Source of the DNA: Granulicella mallensis MP5ACTX8
GTDB lineage: Bacteria > Acidobacteriota > Terriglobia > Terriglobales > Acidobacteriaceae
DNA: 64,000 nucleotides
Reading direction: 5' to 3'
Assembly: GCF_000178955.2 (NCBI RefSeq)
Contig: NC_016631.1
Coordinates: 4,588,001-4,652,000 of the forward strand
The notes under the pieces are model-generated. The model saw only the letters and a list, made by a program, of their open reading frames with translations, was not told the DNA's origin and did no database searches. Positions 2,707-16,142 of this stretch are shown piece after piece. The position numbers and the translations under genes were made by a program. Position 1 is the first letter of the stretch. Every line of letters starts with the position of its first letter.

Positions 2707-4020
2707 ATGTTTCTGCGGATGCTGGGTGAAAGTTTCGTGCGGCAGCGGCGGCGTAAGCTGCTCGCGGGTCTCGCGATCCTGCTCGGCACCACTGCCGTGA
2801 CCGCGATGCTGGCGCTCGCAACGACCATCGGCGACCGCATCCACCGCGAGCTGGCGGTCTATGGCGCAAACATCACGGTCTATCCCAAAGCCGATACTCT
2901 TGATGTAAAGATCGGCGGCCAGACGCTGCGGCCCACAACCGGCGGCGTGTATCTGCATGCGAGCGATCTCGAGAAGCTGCACGGCATCTTCTGGGCCAAC
3001 AACATCACCGGCCTGAGTCCGGAGCTGGACTCCAGCATCAGTCTCGGCAAGATGGACTCCGTACCACCCTCTCCTGTTCCCGCAGCCGGCTTCTGGTTCC
3101 AGCACAACTTCGGCGATGCAAAGGTCAAACTCATCACTGGCGCAACGCAGTTGCATCCGTGGTGGAAGCTGCAAGGGGCAGCCCCCCAGGGCAGTGGCCA
3201 AGTCGTCCTCGGCGCGGCCCTGGCGAAGAGCCTGAAGGTAGGGATTGGCGACCGCCTCATGGTGCTGGGAGCCTCTGACGTGGCCGAACCCGCCACGGTG
3301 ACGGGCATTCTCACAACCGGCGATGCCACCGAGGCAAAAGCGATCTTTGAGTTGAGCACGCTTCAGCAATACGCGAATCTTCCCGATGCAGTCTCTCGCG
3401 TCGACGTCAGCGCGCGCACCAAGCCGGAAGATGCCTTCGCACGCAAGGACCCCGATACTCTTTCCCCGAAGCAGCGCGATCTCTGGTACTGCCGCCCTTA
3501 CGCGAACTCCATCGCCTATCAGATTCGTGAAGCGATCCCCGGAGCTGCCGCCGAGCAGGTACGTCAGGTGGAACAGAGCGAAGGCACGATCCTCGAACGC
3601 ATCAGCGGCCTGATGTGGCTGGTAAGCGCCGCGGCGATGCTGGCTGCCGCAGTGGCAGTCTCCGCGGCGATGGCGACCGCCGTGCTCGAGCGCCGCACCG
3701 AGATCGGCCTCATGCGCTCGCTCGGCGCCAGCAAGGTCCGCATCGCTTCCCTGTTCTACTCTGAGGCCGGTCTACTGGCCCTCCTGGGAGGAATCGTGGG
3801 CTATGGAATCGGCTCCCTTCTCGCAGCACTGCTGACGGCGAGAATCTTTGGCGAGCAATCAGGAATCACTCTGCCTATAGCCATGGCTCATGCCTTCAAC
3901 CCGGCGCTGCTGCCGGTGGTCCTGGGCATTGCGCTTCTGGTCGCCATCGCCGGAAGCACCGCCTCGATCCGTAGCGCCTTACGTATGGATCCCTCCGCCG
4001 TCTTAAGGAATAACGCATGA
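2707..4020 (+). CDS. ABC transporter permease, FtsX/MacB type (iron-operon permease 1)
   Basis: 437 aa with the MacB/FtsX layout: one N-terminal membrane helix (about residues 15-37), a large periplasmic domain to about residue 300, then three helices at the C-terminus. The first of these is 'LMWLVSAAAMLAAAVAVSAA', followed by the conserved coupling segment 'TEIGLMRSLGASK'. It starts 6 bases after the FTR1-DUF2318 stop and its own stop overlaps the next start by ATGA. FtsX-type permeases usually move conformational force rather than small solutes, so together with DUF2318 it probably acts on a periplasmic or redox step of iron uptake. This is an inference from the related Campylobacter/UPEC loci. 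Confidence 0.85.
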   Translation: MFLRMLGESFVRQRRRKLLAGLAILLGTTAVTAMLALATTIGDRIHRELAVYGANITVYPKADTLDVKIGGQTLRPTTGGVYLHASDLEKLHGIFWANNITGLSPELDSSISLGKMDSVPPSPVPAAGFWFQHNFGDAKVKLITGATQLHPWWKLQGAAPQGSGQVVLGAALAKSLKVGIGDRLMVLGASDVAEPATVTGILTTGDATEAKAIFELSTLQQYANLPDAVSRVDVSARTKPEDAFARKDPDTLSPKQRDLWYCRPYANSIAYQIREAIPGAAAEQVRQVEQSEGTILERISGLMWLVSAAAMLAAAVAVSAAMATAVLERRTEIGLMRSLGASKVRIASLFYSEAGLLALLGGIVGYGIGSLLAALLTARIFGEQSGITLPIAMAHAFNPALLPVVLGIALLVAIAGSTASIRSALRMDPSAVLRNNA

Positions 4021-9449: not shown

Positions 9450-9663
9450 CGTTGCTCCGTGCAAAACTGCTCCTAACAAACCTTTGGGAAACCGCTCAAG
9501 CCGATGACTCGATATCGGGTCTATCAACATCTGATTGTAAACGAGGGGACTGTACTGTCCCATGCATAACGCCATCTTCCCGTTGAAAGGCGAAATTCCG
9601 AGCTTCTGCCGAGATGACAATGTTCGGATATTTACATCTTCCATGAGCTTCTACAATCATCAA

Positions 9664-11811
9664 ATGGATCTACGACGCTCCCTCCGTGCTCTGCCACGCT
9701 TCGCAACGGCCACGCTCGCCCTCCTGCTTTGCGCCGCAACCCCTGCCGTACGTGCCCAGCTCACCGAAGTGGGAGATGGCGGTCCAGGTCCGGTAAAGGC
9801 CCAGCACCTCACGGTCGAGCTCACATCGCTGTCCCCGCAGGTTGCCGTTGGCGGACAGGTCCAGGCAGGCCTGGTCATCACCATTGAGGAACACTGGCAC
9901 GTTTACTGGACCAACGCCGGCTTCTCCGGGGAGCCGCCAAAGATCCACTGGACACTGCCTCAGGGCATCACCACCGGCCCCCTCCAGTTCCCGCCACCCT
10001 CACGGTTACCGCTCGGCCCCTACATGGACTACGGCTACGAGGACCATGTAGCGTTGCCCTTCACCGTCACCGCCTCGCCCTCGCTGAAACCTGGCAAAGT
10101 GCATCTGGATGCACATGTGAACTGGCTGGTATGCAGCAGCGTCTGCCTGCCGGGTAAAGCCCATCTCGGCCTCGACCTTGACGTCGCAAAAGGCCCGCTG
10201 CCGGCGCCGGCCGTCGTTGGCACCCTTGGCACGGCTATCACCAGCCTTCCCCGGCCGCTGCGTCCCGATATGAGCGTCGATGTGATCGGCGGAGCCAAAG
10301 AGGTCGTCTTTACCCTGAAAACCGGCGGACGCGAGGCAGAAGCGGAAATTTATCCGTTCGACTCCGGCCAGATCAGCGATACCTCCGACCAGACCGTCGA
10401 GCCACTGCCCGATGGCATTCGCGTGCGCGTGCCCCGGGCGCACGTCTCGCCTGAGTCCGATCAGCTTACGCCCCTCCCGGCAACGATTCATGGCCTCTTC
10501 AAACTGACCGATACCGAGGCCTACGATTTCACAGCGAAAGTCGTTCCGGGGGAGGTTCCAACCCCCACTGCCGGAGCGAAGAAGGGCACGGATACCACCG
10601 GTGCAACCAGCGTGACCCTCTTCGGAGCCATTGGTCTCGCCTTTCTCGGCGGACTGATCCTTAACCTGATGCCGTGCGTCTTCCCCGTGCTCTTCATCAA
10701 GGGCATGGCATTGGTGAACTCCTCCACGGAGGAACGTGGTCGTCAGCGAACCCATGGGCTCGTCTACACGCTGGGCATCGTCGCCTCGTTCTGGGTTGTG
10801 GTCGCCGTGCTGCTCGTCCTGCGAACAACAGGCAAAGAGCTGGGCTGGGGCTTCCAGCTTCAGTCTCCGGTGTTCGTCGCCGTGCTGGCCTCGTTCTTCT
10901 TCTTCCTCGCCCTGTCGCTCGCCGGACAGTTTGAGCTCGGGCTCTCGCTCACCAGCGCCGGCGGAGGCCTGGCTAAGAAGCAAGGCCTAACAGGCAGCTT
11001 CTTCACCGGAGTGCTCGCCACCGTCGTAGCAACACCCTGCACAGGTCCTCTGATGGGCGCGGCCATCGGCTTCGCCCTTGCGCAACCGGCGTGGCTCACA
11101 TTCCTCGTCTTCACTGCGCTTGCCCTGGGTCTCGCGCTGCCCTATCTCGCACTCACCATGCAACCGCAGTGGACGAAAATTCTGCCCAGGCCCGGCGCCT
11201 GGATGGAAGTGTTCAAGCAGCTCACCTCGGTGATCCTGTTCATCACTGCCATCTGGCTCACCTGGGTCTTCGGACACCTCTACGCAAACGATGGCATCGA
11301 CCGCATCGTCGCGTTGCTGGCCTGCTTCCTGGTGCTGGCGATTGCCGGCTGGGTGCTGGGACGCTGGCCCGCCAAATGGGGTTCGACCATCGTCGCAGTC
11401 CTGCTGATTCTTGGAGGGCTCATCATCCCGCTGCGTAAGCCCGCGGTTGAGACGCTAACCTGGCAACCTTACACACAGGCGAACTTCGATGCCGCACGCG
11501 CATCCGGCAAGCCCATCTTCATCGACTTCACCGCCGCCTGGTGCCTGAGCTGCCAGGTCAACGAGCGCGCCGTTCTACGCTCAAAGGATGTCGAGTCGAA
11601 GCTCATCGACAACCACGTCCAACTGCTCAAGGCCGACTGGACACAGTACGACCCGCAGATCACGCAGGAGTTAGCTGCGGTAGGCCGCAGCGGCGTCCCC
11701 ACCTACGTCATCTACCCCGGAAGCAAGAACTCCAATGCCGATGTGCTGCCTGAGTTGCTGACCAAGGATATTGTGCTGAAGGCCATCGAGAAGGACAGCA
11801 AAACCGACTAG
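9664..11811 (+). CDS. DsbD-family protein-disulfide reductase (thioredoxin fused), 715 aa
   Basis: Domains in order: signal peptide (residues 1-31, ending 'AVRAQ'); a DsbD N-terminal beta domain with the cysteine pair in 'CSSVCLPGKA'; an eight-helix membrane domain with the paired cysteines in 'NLMPCVFPV' and 'ATPCTGPLMGAA'; and a periplasmic thioredoxin domain with CLSC at about 627-630. It would pass electrons from cytoplasmic thioredoxin to periplasmic thiols. Start choice is uncertain: ATG 9664 gives a clean signal peptide, while 9643 and 9562 are in frame without better ribosome sites. The last 41 bases recur at 14940-14980. A strong terminator overlaps the stop. Confidence 0.88.
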   Translation: MDLRRSLRALPRFATATLALLLCAATPAVRAQLTEVGDGGPGPVKAQHLTVELTSLSPQVAVGGQVQAGLVITIEEHWHVYWTNAGFSGEPPKIHWTLPQGITTGPLQFPPPSRLPLGPYMDYGYEDHVALPFTVTASPSLKPGKVHLDAHVNWLVCSSVCLPGKAHLGLDLDVAKGPLPAPAVVGTLGTAITSLPRPLRPDMSVDVIGGAKEVVFTLKTGGREAEAEIYPFDSGQISDTSDQTVEPLPDGIRVRVPRAHVSPESDQLTPLPATIHGLFKLTDTEAYDFTAKVVPGEVPTPTAGAKKGTDTTGATSVTLFGAIGLAFLGGLILNLMPCVFPVLFIKGMALVNSSTEERGRQRTHGLVYTLGIVASFWVVVAVLLVLRTTGKELGWGFQLQSPVFVAVLASFFFFLALSLAGQFELGLSLTSAGGGLAKKQGLTGSFFTGVLATVVATPCTGPLMGAAIGFALAQPAWLTFLVFTALALGLALPYLALTMQPQWTKILPRPGAWMEVFKQLTSVILFITAIWLTWVFGHLYANDGIDRIVALLACFLVLAIAGWVLGRWPAKWGSTIVAVLLILGGLIIPLRKPAVETLTWQPYTQANFDAARASGKPIFIDFTAAWCLSCQVNERAVLRSKDVESKLIDNHVQLLKADWTQYDPQITQELAAVGRSGVPTYVIYPGSKNSNADVLPELLTKDIVLKAIEKDSKTD

Positions 11812-11812
11812 G
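11772..11812. repeat. Direct repeat copy 1: dsbD 3' end
   Basis: The last 40 bases of the DsbD-family gene plus one. It matches 14940-14980 at 40 of 41 positions (single C/A change at 11784) and matches 13728-13762 more loosely. It marks the left boundary of the 3.17-kb protease cassette. Confidence 0.8.
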
Positions 11813-11846
11813 TTGTCAGGGTACCCTGACAACCTACGACTTTTTT
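11811..11846 (+). terminator. Terminator of the DsbD-family gene
   Basis: GGTTGTCAGGGT (11811-11822) and ACCCTGACAACC (11823-11834) form a perfect 24-base palindrome starting in the stop codon. CTACGAC and a six-T run (11841-11846) follow. The stem leaves only a minimal loop but the T run supports termination. Confidence 0.75.
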
Positions 11847-11887
11847 ACGAATCCTGCATTAATAGAGCGCGCAGATTGCAATAATGA

Positions 11888-11916
11888 TTGACAGGCGGAA
11901 AGTGATCACTTAGGGT
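11888..11916 (+). promoter_or_regulatory. Candidate promoter of the protease cassette
   Basis: A perfect -35 box TTGACA (11888-11893), a 17-base spacer and a poor -10 box TAGGGT (11911-11916). AT-rich TTTTAAAATCCC follows. It would drive the broken secreted-protein ORF and the first protease. The weak -10 keeps this tentative. Confidence 0.3.
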
Positions 11917-12003
11917 TGGGAACATCTTTTAAAATCCCACTCCAAGGAAATTCCTTATGCTGAGCAATAAGCTGAGATTCTCAACAACTGCATCTCGATT
12001 AGC

Positions 12004-12627
12004 TTGTTAGATTTGCTAACAGGATGCACGGTAACCGGAAGTGCCGGAGCGCCTGCGACATACAGCACCTCTACTGGGGGCTGGACAATTGGCGGCCAAG
12101 TCGATGTCACCGTCGGCAAGACCACCAAGTCTGGCACATTGCCGAACGCCATAATGCCTGTCTGCGGAGACGCAACTCCCACCACATCCAGTCTGCTCTT
12201 CGTGCTCCCTACAGGAGTGGCGCTCAGAAACAACCAGGCAGTAGTGACCCTCGTGGCGACCACAGACACAGGATACACATCGTCTATCGCTGTGCCTGTA
12301 ACCGCATCCTCCATGGGCTCAACACAAGCCAACTCGATCTCTTACGCTTATACCGTTCCGGATTCAACCGACCTGCAAAACTGGAAATCGCAGGTAGATG
12401 CGAACACAACCAACACCGCTACACTTAGTGTCCAGACCTCCGTGCCTGCTGTTGTAACTGGAACAGCCCCGTCGTATCCCGTGCAGATCACAGCTACTAG
12501 TCCGATGGGAGATTTCAATGTAGCTACGGTGAACGTGTCTGGAAACGCCACGTCCCCAAGCGGCCCGAGTGGTAACTGCCCGACACGAGGGAACTGCCTG
12601 GAACCCGGTTCAGGAGGAAGCAATTGA
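12004..12627 (+). pseudogene. Probably frame-shifted secreted/lipoprotein gene upstream of protease 1
   Basis: An open frame of about 207 codons has only a TTG at 12004 as a possible start. It encodes a Thr/Ser/Val-rich, beta-strand-like protein ending 'EPGSGGSN'. Near its start is a lipobox-like 'LLTGC'. In another frame, ATG 11957 with AGGAA upstream gives 'MLSNKLRFSTTASRLAC' and then a TAG at 12008, just where this frame opens. A single frameshift would join a signal-peptide-like start to the lipobox, so the gene looks broken, or starts in an unusual way. Its stop overlaps the TTG start of protease 1 (TTGA). Function unknown. Confidence 0.45.
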
Positions 12628-12690
12628 AGGCTTCTTCCTCCTGTCAGCTAAGCTCTTGTCGAGCAGGAGGACTGATCGTCCTCCTGCTCG
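12611..12690 (+). promoter_or_regulatory. Stacked hairpins covering the protease 1 ribosome site
   Basis: CAGGAGGAAG (12611-12620), the Shine-Dalgarno, pairs perfectly with CTTCCTCCTG (12634-12643), placing the TTG start (12624) in the loop. A second stem, CGAGCAGGAGGAC (12660-12672) with GTCCTCCTGCTCG (12678-12690), follows in the signal-peptide codons. Both stems contain AGGAGG/CCTCCT, so the strands can swap partners. This could make translation depend on the upstream ORF's ribosomes opening the stem. Confidence 0.5.
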
Positions 12691-13643
12691 CAATCTTGGC
12701 TCCAACCCTCCAGATGAAGGCCCAAAGCAGCAAAACAAAACCTGCCTTTTCACTTCCCTTCGTAAATCACGATGGCTATATTATTGTGAGTCTCGACTTT
12801 AACAAAGCAGGTCCCAGATTTTTCCTTGTAGATACAGGACTCTCCGATACGATGCTTGACTCGGGGTTCGCCGAGCAAATGAAACTGGATACATACGAGG
12901 AGAAAGGGCTCAAAGCTACTGGGATCTTCAGTCAGGATGCTATCCCTGCGCGTGTTGCCCGCAAAGGTGTTATCCATCAAAAGAAATTGTCCTTTGCAAG
13001 TGGCCCTTACCCAATCTTTAATATAAGTGGCTTGAGCCAAGGGCTGGGAATCGACCTGGCTGGCGTTTTAGGATTTCCAATTTTTGGGAAATACGTCGTC
13101 GAAATCAACTACGATACAAAGACCCTCGACTACTTCAAACCGAAGAAGTTCGAATATCAAGGTTCGGGGCAAGTACTTCCACTCAAAGGATCTCGAAAGT
13201 TGATTATCGATGCGGGACTGACGTTAAACAACTGCCAACAAGTCTCCGTCCCGCTAATTCTCGACACCGGCTCTAACGATTCTCTGCAGTTAGACAAGAC
13301 TGCACAGATAAAGTACGGTTTTCCTGGAAAACAGCCCCTGCACTCTAATGGCAAAGGGACTATCGTAATGGGCGGGCCTGAGGGAACGGAGATGGAACCC
13401 AGTAGCAAAGCGGGGAAGATCAAGTCCTTGCAGCTTGGTTCCTACACTTTACCGGATGTCGAAACCGTTTTCGCGGAAAGAGACGCTGTCACCGAAGATA
13501 GTGCACCCACAGACGGAGTTCTCGGCGTCGAGCTTCTATCTCAATTCAACATCATCGTCAATAAACCAAATGGCAGCCTGATTCTAGAGTCACGTAAATC
13601 TATGGTAACGAATCAACCTCCAGCATGCGTACCGTCGAGCTAG
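12624..13643 (+). CDS. Secreted two-lobed retropepsin-like aspartic protease, copy 1 (339 aa)
   Basis: A Cys-containing signal region ('GGLIVLLLAILAPTLQMKAQ') is followed by two clan-AA lobes, each with a catalytic-type triad: 'FFLVDTG' (Asp70) and 'PLILDTGSND' (Asp214). One chain thus holds both halves of a pepsin-like active site, while most bacterial relatives have one lobe and dimerise. The TTG start is supported by a strong AGGAGG at 12612-12617 and by the TTGA overlap with the preceding ORF. It is 80% or more identical by eye to the gene at 13818. The coding style is lower in GC than the flanking genes. The substrate is unknown. Confidence 0.75.
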   Translation: MKASSSCQLSSCRAGGLIVLLLAILAPTLQMKAQSSKTKPAFSLPFVNHDGYIIVSLDFNKAGPRFFLVDTGLSDTMLDSGFAEQMKLDTYEEKGLKATGIFSQDAIPARVARKGVIHQKKLSFASGPYPIFNISGLSQGLGIDLAGVLGFPIFGKYVVEINYDTKTLDYFKPKKFEYQGSGQVLPLKGSRKLIIDAGLTLNNCQQVSVPLILDTGSNDSLQLDKTAQIKYGFPGKQPLHSNGKGTIVMGGPEGTEMEPSSKAGKIKSLQLGSYTLPDVETVFAERDAVTEDSAPTDGVLGVELLSQFNIIVNKPNGSLILESRKSMVTNQPPACVPSS

Positions 13644-13727
13644 ATCGTGAGATCTCTCTACCTATGATGAATTTGCCTATTCATCACAGTTCATAAATAG
13701 CGTATCTGAAAGCTGTCGACTAGGAAT

Positions 13728-13762
13728 ATTGCGCCAAAAGCAATCGAGAAGAACTGCAAACC
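13728..13762. repeat. Degenerate copy of the dsbD 3' end after protease 1
   Basis: This stretch aligns with 11770-11806 over 'ATTG.GC..AA.GC.ATCGAGAAG.AC.GCAAA', with several substitutions and one indel. It lies at the same place relative to protease 1 as the near-perfect copy at 14940-14980 lies to protease 2. The rest of the 174-base gap is homologous to the 3' flank of protease 2. Confidence 0.6.
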
Positions 13763-13817
13763 TTAGCCAATTAGAATGGCTTGGTAATTAAAAATCTCTC
13801 TATAAGTTGAACGAAAC

Positions 13818-14855
13818 ATGCTGCGACGGAAACAGCTGAGCGCTTCTCCCGCACATCAGTTAAACCCTTGTCGAGCAGGAGGACTAATAATCCTCCTGCT
13901 CGCGATCTTGGCTCCAGGTCTCCAGATGAAGGCCCAGGGGCCAAAAATGAAACCTGCCTTTTCACTTCCCTTCGTGGATCACGATGGCTATATCATTGTG
14001 AGTCTCGATTTTAACAAGGCAGGCCCCAAGTTTTTCCTTGTAGATACAGGAGTCACTGATACCGTACTTGACTCGGGGTTCGCCGAGCAGATGAAGTTGG
14101 ATACACACGAGGAGAAACGACTCAAAGCTACCGGTGGCTTCAGTCATGATGTTATTCCCACCCGTGTCGTTGACAAGGGTGTTATCCACAGAAAAGGGTT
14201 GTCCTTTGCGCGTGGCCCTTACCCCGTCTTTGATATGAGTGGTTTCAGTCAATTCTTTGAAATCGACTTAGCGGGCATCTTAGGGTATCCACTTTTTGGA
14301 AAGTACGTCGTCGAAATCAACTACGATACAAAGAGCCTGGACTTTTTCAAACCCAAGAAGTTTAAATATCAAGGCGCGGGACAGATATTTCAACTCAAAG
14401 GATCTCGAAAGCTGATCATTGATGCCGGGTTGACGTTAAATAGCTGCCAACAGGTTTCCGTTCCTCTATTTCTCGACACCGGCTCTAACGATTCTCTTCA
14501 GCTTGATAAGACCGCACAGCAAAAGTATGGCCTTCCTGGAAAACAGCCTCTGCACCCTAATGGCGAGGGGACTATCGTAATGGGCGGACCTGAGGGAACT
14601 GAGGTGGAACCCAGTAGCAAAGCGGGAAAGATCAAGTCCTTGCAACTTGGTTCCTACGCTTTACCGGATGTCGAAACCGTTTTCGCGGAAAGAGACACTA
14701 TCACCGAAGATAGTGTATGGACAGACGGGGATCTCGGGGTTGACGTCCTGTCTCAATTCAACATCATCGTCAATAAACCAAATGGCAGCCTAATTCTGGA
14801 ACCACGTAAACCTATGGCAACGAACCAACCTCAGACGTGCGTGCCATTGAATTAG
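13818..14855 (+). CDS. Secreted two-lobed retropepsin-like aspartic protease, copy 2 (345 aa)
   Basis: A tandem paralogue of the gene at 12624 with the same layout: hydrophobic signal ('GGLIILLLAILAPGLQMKAQ') and two lobes with 'FFLVDTG' and 'PLFLDTGSND'. The differences lie mainly in the first 15 residues and in the surface loops between the lobes. The ATG at 13818 has no good ribosome site (AACGAAAC precedes it), unlike copy 1. A 12-bp hairpin (13872-13883 with 13891-13902) is kept at the same place in the signal-peptide codons. Its 3' flank ends in a near-perfect copy of the dsbD tail. Confidence 0.72.
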   Translation: MLRRKQLSASPAHQLNPCRAGGLIILLLAILAPGLQMKAQGPKMKPAFSLPFVDHDGYIIVSLDFNKAGPKFFLVDTGVTDTVLDSGFAEQMKLDTHEEKRLKATGGFSHDVIPTRVVDKGVIHRKGLSFARGPYPVFDMSGFSQFFEIDLAGILGYPLFGKYVVEINYDTKSLDFFKPKKFKYQGAGQIFQLKGSRKLIIDAGLTLNSCQQVSVPLFLDTGSNDSLQLDKTAQQKYGLPGKQPLHPNGEGTIVMGGPEGTEVEPSSKAGKIKSLQLGSYALPDVETVFAERDTITEDSVWTDGDLGVDVLSQFNIIVNKPNGSLILEPRKPMATNQPQTCVPLN

Positions 14856-14939
14856 ATCGTGAGACCTTCTACCTGTAATGAATATGGCTATTCAGCACAA
14901 TTCATAAATAGCGCACCTGAAAACTGTCGGCCAAAGATA

Positions 14940-14980
14940 TGTGCTGAAGGCAATCGAGAAGGACAGCAAAACCGACTAGG
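14940..14980. repeat. Direct repeat copy 3: near-perfect dsbD 3' end
   Basis: 40 of 41 bases equal the end of the DsbD-family gene at 11772-11812, including its stop codon TAG. No reading frame of that family precedes it. It marks the right boundary of the protease cassette; sequence resembling an ordinary intergenic spacer follows up to purK. Confidence 0.85.
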
Positions 14981-15010: not shown

Positions 15011-15049
15011 GGGTGCCCCATCCTCGACGCGCGTCGAGGATGGGCACCC
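15011..15049. repeat. Long GC-rich hairpin downstream of purK
   Basis: GGGTGCCCCATCCTCGACGC (15011-15030) pairs with GCGTCGAGGATGGGCACCC (15031-15049), a 19-bp stem with one bulged C. There is no T run on the purK strand. It may be an intergenic repeat unit or a stem protecting the end of the pur transcript. Confidence 0.5.
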
Positions 15050-15062
15050 GGATATAGCTTGT

Positions 15063-16142
15063 CTAAATCTGCCCCAGCCGCCGCTGCCACTCTGCAATCA
15101 CTGTTGTCTCAGACGCCGCGCACGTCAGGTGCCCCACCTTACGCCCAGGTCGAGACTCCTTGCCGTAGTCGTGCCGAAACAACACCGGAAACTGCGCCGT
15201 CTCTTCTACCGAAGGCATCATTCCAATGCAGTTCAGCATGACCGTCGGCCGGCTCTCCGTGCTGCCCAGCTCCATCCCCGCAATAGCACGCAGATGATTT
15301 TCAAACTGCGAGGTCTTTGAGCCTTCAATCGTCCAGTGGCCGGAGTTATGCACCCGCGGCGCCATTTCATTGGCCCGCAGCGTATCTCCCTGCACAAAGA
15401 ACTCGATCGCCAGCACACCGACATAGTCGAGTTCTTCCAGAATCTTCGTCATATAGGCTTCAGCCTGCGCCTGCAAAGTAGAAGCATGAGCATAGGGCGC
15501 GATAGAGGTCCGCAAGATACCGTCGCGATGATGGTTTTCGATCAGCGGATAGAACACAATCTGCCCCGTCCGTCCGCGTGCCGCAATCAGCGATACCTCG
15601 GCATCGAACCGCAGCATCCCCTCGAGGATGCACGACACACGGCCGATCTCCTCCCACGCCGCCGCAGCATCTTCAGGACGATGCAACCGCACCTGCCCCT
15701 TGCCGTCGTAGCCCATGCGGCGCGTCTTGAGAATCGCCGGCAGTCCGGTAGAAACGATCGCCCGCTCCAAATCCTGCAGGCTATCGACTGGCGCAAACGG
15801 CGCAGTGCCGATGCCGCAGACCTGAAAGAAACTCTTCTCCGGCAGGCGGTCCTGCGCAATGCCGACAGCGCGCGCGTTCGGATAGAGGTTCAACCCGTGC
15901 AGCACAGTCGCATCGATGTTCTCGCTCTCGATCGTGACCAGATCGACCTGAGCCGCAAACGCTGCGACCGCTGCCGCGTCGTCCAGATCGACAGCTACCA
16001 CCGGCGCAACCTGTTCGGCACAGTCGCCAGGCTGGCCGGCGCAGATGATATCCACGTCAAGCCGCCTGCCTGCCTCTGCCAGCATGAGCGCCAACTGCCC
16101 GGCGCCGAGGATACCGATACGGGTTCGTGCTGTCTGTGTCAT
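15063..16142 (-). CDS. purK: 5-(carboxyamino)imidazole ribonucleotide synthase
   Basis: 359 aa, ATP-grasp fold. It makes N5-CAIR from AIR, bicarbonate and ATP. The N-terminus '[21 protein letters not shown]' is the family's typical beginning; '[14 protein letters not shown]' carries the ATP-binding lysine and glycine loop, and '[29 protein letters not shown]' holds the metal and phosphate-binding residues. The ATG overlaps the purE stop (ATGA, 16139-16142). It is the last gene of the pur operon. The purEK pair implies the two-step bacterial carboxylation route. Confidence 0.95.

Follow-up and report, generated by a model that had tools for sequence, protein, structure and literature searches.

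Several described systems come close to the locus reported here. CIMEs have a layout comparable to it (PMC5704250), Dehalococcoides carries tandem ssrA islands with 20-bp ssrA repeats (PMC3146451), and Vibrio cholerae contains arrays with displaced 3′ gene ends, for which the authors invoke homology-facilitated illegitimate recombination (PMC5361080). We have examined a 64-kb stretch of the genome of the tundra bacterium Granulicella mallensis MP5ACTX8 (the window, contig positions 4,588,001-4,652,000), in which a frameshifted lipoprotein gene, orfX, and two aspartyl protease genes lie between a dsbD-family gene and purK, and in which the 3′ end of dsbD recurs downstream of the proteases (Table 1).

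Table 1. Features of the dsbD-purK interval of G. mallensis MP5ACTX8, in window positions.
Feature	Position	Strand	Evidence
Intact dsbD-family gene carrying the repeat	9562..11811	+	Pfam DsbD_N, DsbD_TM, Thioredoxin_7
Repeat copy 1 (41 bp), dsbD 3′ end	11772..11812	+	
28-nt perfect palindrome followed by a T run, terminator-like, overlapping TAGG of copy 1	11809..11836	+	
Segment missing in X5P3, comprising islet and second tail	11813..14980	+	X5P3 comparison; GC 48.8%
orfX, lipoprotein gene with frameshift in signal region; open part 12004-12627	11958..12627	+	
Tandem unit, first copy (protease, 3′-UTR, decayed tail)	12616..13760	+	82.9% identical to 13828-14970
Secreted two-DTG aspartyl protease 1	12624..13643	+	PF13650, 41.2 bits (cut-off 24.3)
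Middle copy, decayed dsbD tail	about 13711..13770	+	Local alignment score against shuffles
Aspartyl protease 2 (secreted, two DTG motifs), 80% aa identity with protease 1	13818..14855	+	PF13650, 41.1 bits (cut-off 24.3)
Tandem unit, second copy	13828..14970	+	
Repeat copy 2 (41 bp), right side joined to native flank	14940..14980	+	
purK, right-hand neighbour	15063..16142	-	Pfam ATP-grasp, PurK_C

The original prediction held that the stretch behind dsbD is a discrete segment of lower GC that left the gene intact, and named as its test a relative lacking exactly positions 11813-14980. The closest genome, that of the sister strain G. mallensis X5P3 (G022), turned out to be such a relative. Its DsbD is 95.6% identical to that of MP5ACTX8 over the whole protein and 97% identical over the C-terminal 403 aa, and the divergence between the two dsbD genes is uneven, with no clear donor tract toward the 3′ end. 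At the X5P3 dsbD junction the sequence reads ...GACTAGG followed directly by GACGTAGCGCGTTTTG..., and to the right of copy 2 that of MP5ACTX8 reads ...GACTAGG followed directly by GAAAGTAGCGCGTTTTG.... Since dsbD of X5P3 is thus continuous with the sequence found to the right of copy 2, exactly 11813-14980 is missing there. Consistently, the left blastn match between both strains stops exactly at 11812 and the alignment restarts at 14931, inside copy 2. The empty site lies inside a 543-kb contig and is therefore not an assembly edge. The GC content of the segment (48.8%, against 60.2% for the window) was the lowest among 305 windows of the same size, as anticipated, and GC3 was 0.51 in the proteases versus 0.75 in dsbD. 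Owing to its clean absence from X5P3, we consider the 3.2-kb stretch to be a small strain-variable gene islet. Two features expected of an integrative element were found, namely a gene 3′ end directly repeated on either side of the segment (40/41 identical) and, in a relative, an empty site with a single repeat.

In the next relative, G009, 3.3 kb of unrelated genes without tail repeats lie between dsbD and purK, and the presence of a different cargo at this junction indicates that dsbD-purK is a variable spot. By eye, the G009 cargo (L046) consists of oxidoreductase-like and VCBS-repeat-like genes, and several other congeners carry a redoxin-like gene behind dsbD. We also observed a REP-like palindrome, GGGTGCCCCATCC..., at window positions 15011-15050, beside copy 2; in X5P3 (L045, about 3228-3460) the REP-like palindrome is interrupted by a longer nested palindromic insert.

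The islet borders are marked by the dsbD tail. As first noticed, the last 41 bases of dsbD recur at the right border as a direct repeat with one mismatch, a match for which the chance expectation in 64 kb is about 5e-14, and a genome-wide search with the 30-nt core of the repeat (up to 3 mismatches) found copies 1 and 2 as the sole sites. The decayed copy proposed to follow protease 1 was also real: its alignment to the dsbD tail scored 24, while the maximum among 1000 dinucleotide shuffles was 14. To the left of copy 2, decayed dsbD homology continues for about 20 nt more (12/20 identical), although past the tails this extension was not significant and that of the middle copy was marginal. 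With the boundary between the 20-nt and 41-nt parts being set by the repeat itself, copy 2 differs from dsbD at 8/20 positions upstream versus 1/41 in the terminal block (Fisher p = 0.0003), and changes private to copy 2 amount to 4/20 and 0/41, respectively (p = 0.009). This contrast leads us to think that the distal tail was probably renewed, or exchanged with a resident dsbD, after the duplication described below. Copy 2 and the middle copy have a base in GCAATC in common, which places any exchange inside the last 27 bp or else calls for repeated mutation. The terminator-like palindrome at the left border occurs only once in the genome, and we rejected the idea that it is a dispersed element. 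The 57-nt spacer at 13771-13827 was likewise considered as a copy of the left end of the islet and dismissed, the similarity being not significant (p = 0.07).

Since every tail lies downstream of a gene, the repeat might be a functional element, such as a terminator or an mRNA stabiliser, that is reused behind the protease and has nothing to do with insertion. We considered such a regulatory role and rejected it as extremely improbable, given the coding origin of the tail, which is dsbD coding sequence, the free decay of the middle copy while the proteases stayed intact, and the occurrence at a single locus: the tail is absent behind any other gene in the genome, and no conserved tail was found behind the proteases of the unrelated loci tested.

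The two protease genes belong to tandem units that are 82.9% identical over 1145 bp, including the 3′-UTR and the tail. As both units share these parts, the junction between the protease 3′-UTR and the dsbD tail would have arisen once, before the duplication. The original prediction had the unit of protease plus tail duplicating late; the duplication itself is borne out by this identity, but the order of events has to be reversed. Proteases 1 and 2 differ by a dS of 0.54 (dN 0.11), and dsbD shows a dS of 0.22 between MP5ACTX8 and X5P3 and of 0.76 between MP5ACTX8 and G009. From these substitution rates, the duplication of the protease gene would seem to precede the divergence of the two strains if the clock was roughly constant, and the dates are rough because the base composition of the cargo differs. 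An old duplication of protease plus tail, set against a fresh terminal 41 bp, implies that the duplication predates the present junction.

The same dS values would fit an islet ancestral to both strains, lost from X5P3 by recombination between the 41-bp repeats, with copy 2 kept dsbD-like by gene conversion. A deletion between the direct repeats yields exactly the X5P3 sequence, and the tails are closer to the mallensis-type dsbD end than to that of G009. Against such an origin, copy 2 is non-coding and differs at only 1/41 positions (P about 0.07 at 10% divergence and 0.005 at 17%), so that gene conversion has to be added to the explanation. Moreover, there is no trace of the proteases at the G009 dsbD junction, nor a close homologue in other congeners. 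We regard this history as rather unlikely.

Regarding the cargo, the original description of a broken secreted-protein gene followed by two aspartic proteases was correct. From its ATG at 11958, orfX reaches a stop after 17 codons, and the remainder (12004-12627) is open in another frame. Both proteases score above the PF13650 cut-off, have signal-peptide-like starts (by eye) and two DTG motifs each, and D76, G78 and D220-T221-G222 are invariant among 12 homologues. Their dN/dS of about 0.2 indicates purifying selection. Judging from the signal-peptide-like starts, the DTG motifs and this selection, the cell envelope or the extracellular space is probably where the cargo acts. Relatives, plasmids, phages and viral contigs yielded nothing close to the proteases, a search with protease 2 that also took in genome contigs was negative too, and a sequence search of the PDB gave nothing convincing.

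At seven Acidobacteriaceae loci, a lipoprotein-like member of the orfX family, which has no Pfam match, lies directly 5′ of a two-DTG aspartyl protease. These loci are the window itself, two in G365 and one each in G003, G291, G284 and G217 (L068, L069, L070, L094, L095 and L096). The orfX relative is frameshifted in the window and apparently also in G003, contains an in-frame TAG in one G365 contig (C103), and is open with a lipobox in G217. The cargo is therefore a conserved Acidobacteriaceae two-gene module, composed of a lipoprotein and a secreted two-DTG aspartyl protease, whose protease is duplicated in the islet. A search of genomes for further units of protease plus dsbD tail had been proposed; at distant protease loci it returned none, with no dsbD tail beside any of the loci tested outside the window and no repeats of the gene-tail type flanking the other module copies. 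Downstream of the protease in G365 contig C111 (L070, 5771-5983), a unit of roughly 90 nt is present in three tandem copies. Members of this protease family are also arranged as tandem pairs in another genus (g79; L075, L077 and L078), and no orfX relative was found alongside them.

We next turn to how the islet could have reached this position. Its insertion had been likened to that of site-specific elements, while the absence of an integrase was acknowledged. The absence was confirmed for the tyrosine type: no tyrosine recombinase gene is present in the window, and the nearest among the matches listed lies about 140 kb outside it, several such genes being found elsewhere in the MP5ACTX8 genome. 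Similarly, the region immediately behind dsbD in 16 congeners contains no PF00589 gene among the matches listed. These searches covered recombinases of the tyrosine type (PF00589) in genome sequences. Further dsbD-tail sites were found neither in the genome, nor in relatives (pattern search), nor in viral contigs, and a limited literature search gave no report of dsbD as an integration site. The likeness to site-specific insertion was thus not upheld.

A decayed site-specific element of the CIME kind is nevertheless a possible, if doubtful, explanation. The 41-bp tails would correspond to attL and attR and the middle tail to an old internal att left by tandem accretion, with the integrase acting in trans, as the tyrosine recombinase genes elsewhere in the genome would allow, or lost. 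The gene-end repeats at both borders, the intact gene and the exact empty site agree with such an element, as does the decayed internal repeat between two units, a layout that matches those of CIMEs and of the tandem ssrA islands of Dehalococcoides. Furthermore, the palindrome over TAGG suggests that the element brought its own tail end. However, no tyrosine-type integrase was found in the segment, the window or, among the matches listed, the region just behind dsbD in the congeners, the relatives and viral contigs searched yielded no other tail site, and the internal unit arose from the same gene as a now diverged duplicate rather than being a second element with ends of its own. Because no recombinase was found and the tail occurs nowhere else among the sequences searched, we prefer general recombination over site-specific integration.

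Our preferred explanation, which we put at about an even chance, is that a small, horizontally shuffled islet occupies the dsbD-purK interval, its right border being a captured remnant of the dsbD 3′ end that recombined, homologously or by one-sided illegitimate events, without a dedicated integrase. A one-sided, homology-facilitated illegitimate recombination would have fused foreign DNA with a dsbD gene lacking its 5′ part, leaving the remnant, which could thereafter have served as a handle for general homologous recombination. When an incoming dsbD-islet-remnant fragment met an empty locus, a left-hand crossover within dsbD and a right-hand one within the tail would install the islet and keep dsbD whole, the resident gene supplying a renewed distal tail. 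An exchange between the 41-bp copies 1 and 2 would in turn delete the islet and restore the X5P3 state, so that neither gain nor loss would need a dedicated integrase. The arrangement found here, in which one border is a gene remnant, the other offers homology and no recombinase gene was found on the segment, is that expected of an islet formed by homologous or homology-facilitated illegitimate recombination. In favour of general recombination through a captured remnant are the empty site, the locus-unique tail, the low GC and GC3, the dS contrast, the mosaic structure of copy 2, the lack of a tyrosine-type integrase among the matches nearby, and the precedent of the V. cholerae arrays with their displaced 3′ gene ends.

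Several points count against this preferred explanation. No donor strain with the islet was found, and the direction of the event, gain here or loss in X5P3, is therefore unproved. Along dsbD, the strain divergence lacks a clear donor tract toward the 3′ end, and efficient RecA recombination usually calls for more than 41 bp. The base that copy 2 shares with the middle copy also limits where an exchange could have taken place. Besides, the overlap of the palindrome with TAGG is a hint that the distal tail came with the islet itself, as it also would with a site-specific element. A broader scheme, which strikes us as quite improbable, would be an integrase-free cassette system in which genes that have captured the dsbD tail are loaded, stacked and lost at dsbD through general recombination, so that genes for secreted proteins would accumulate in a growing Granulicella array.

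The exact empty site documents the gain or loss of a small module next to a core gene where no recombinase was found, and the order of events is now corrected, with the duplication preceding the terminal repeat. As a by-product, the analysis brought out an unnamed lipoprotein-aspartyl protease module that recurs in Acidobacteriaceae and is a candidate for functions in the cell envelope or in proteolysis outside the cell.

Compared with known systems, the islet resembles CIMEs and accreted ssrA islands in that foreign DNA adjoins the 3′ terminus of a gene that it leaves intact, the end of this gene is directly repeated at the opposite border, tandem units are separated by an internal repeat, and the unit has no integrase. 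It differs from them in its size of only 3.2 kb, in its host gene, dsbD, in that no integrase-bearing relative was found, and in having as its internal unit a second, diverged copy of the same gene. As neither a related integrase nor excision is in evidence, we have not classed it as a CIME. Its proteases are like the bacterial aspartyl proteases of PF13650 and PF13975 in scoring above the Pfam cut-offs and in keeping two DTG motifs, but they share only about 20-30% identity with the relatives found, and they are paired with an uncharacterised lipoprotein. Finally, as in the T6SS immunity-gene arrays of V. cholerae, 3′ gene remnants are pushed downstream by incoming DNA and related genes are stacked without an integrase, whereas the islet cargo consists of proteases instead of effector-immunity pairs and its anchor, dsbD, lies outside the cargo.
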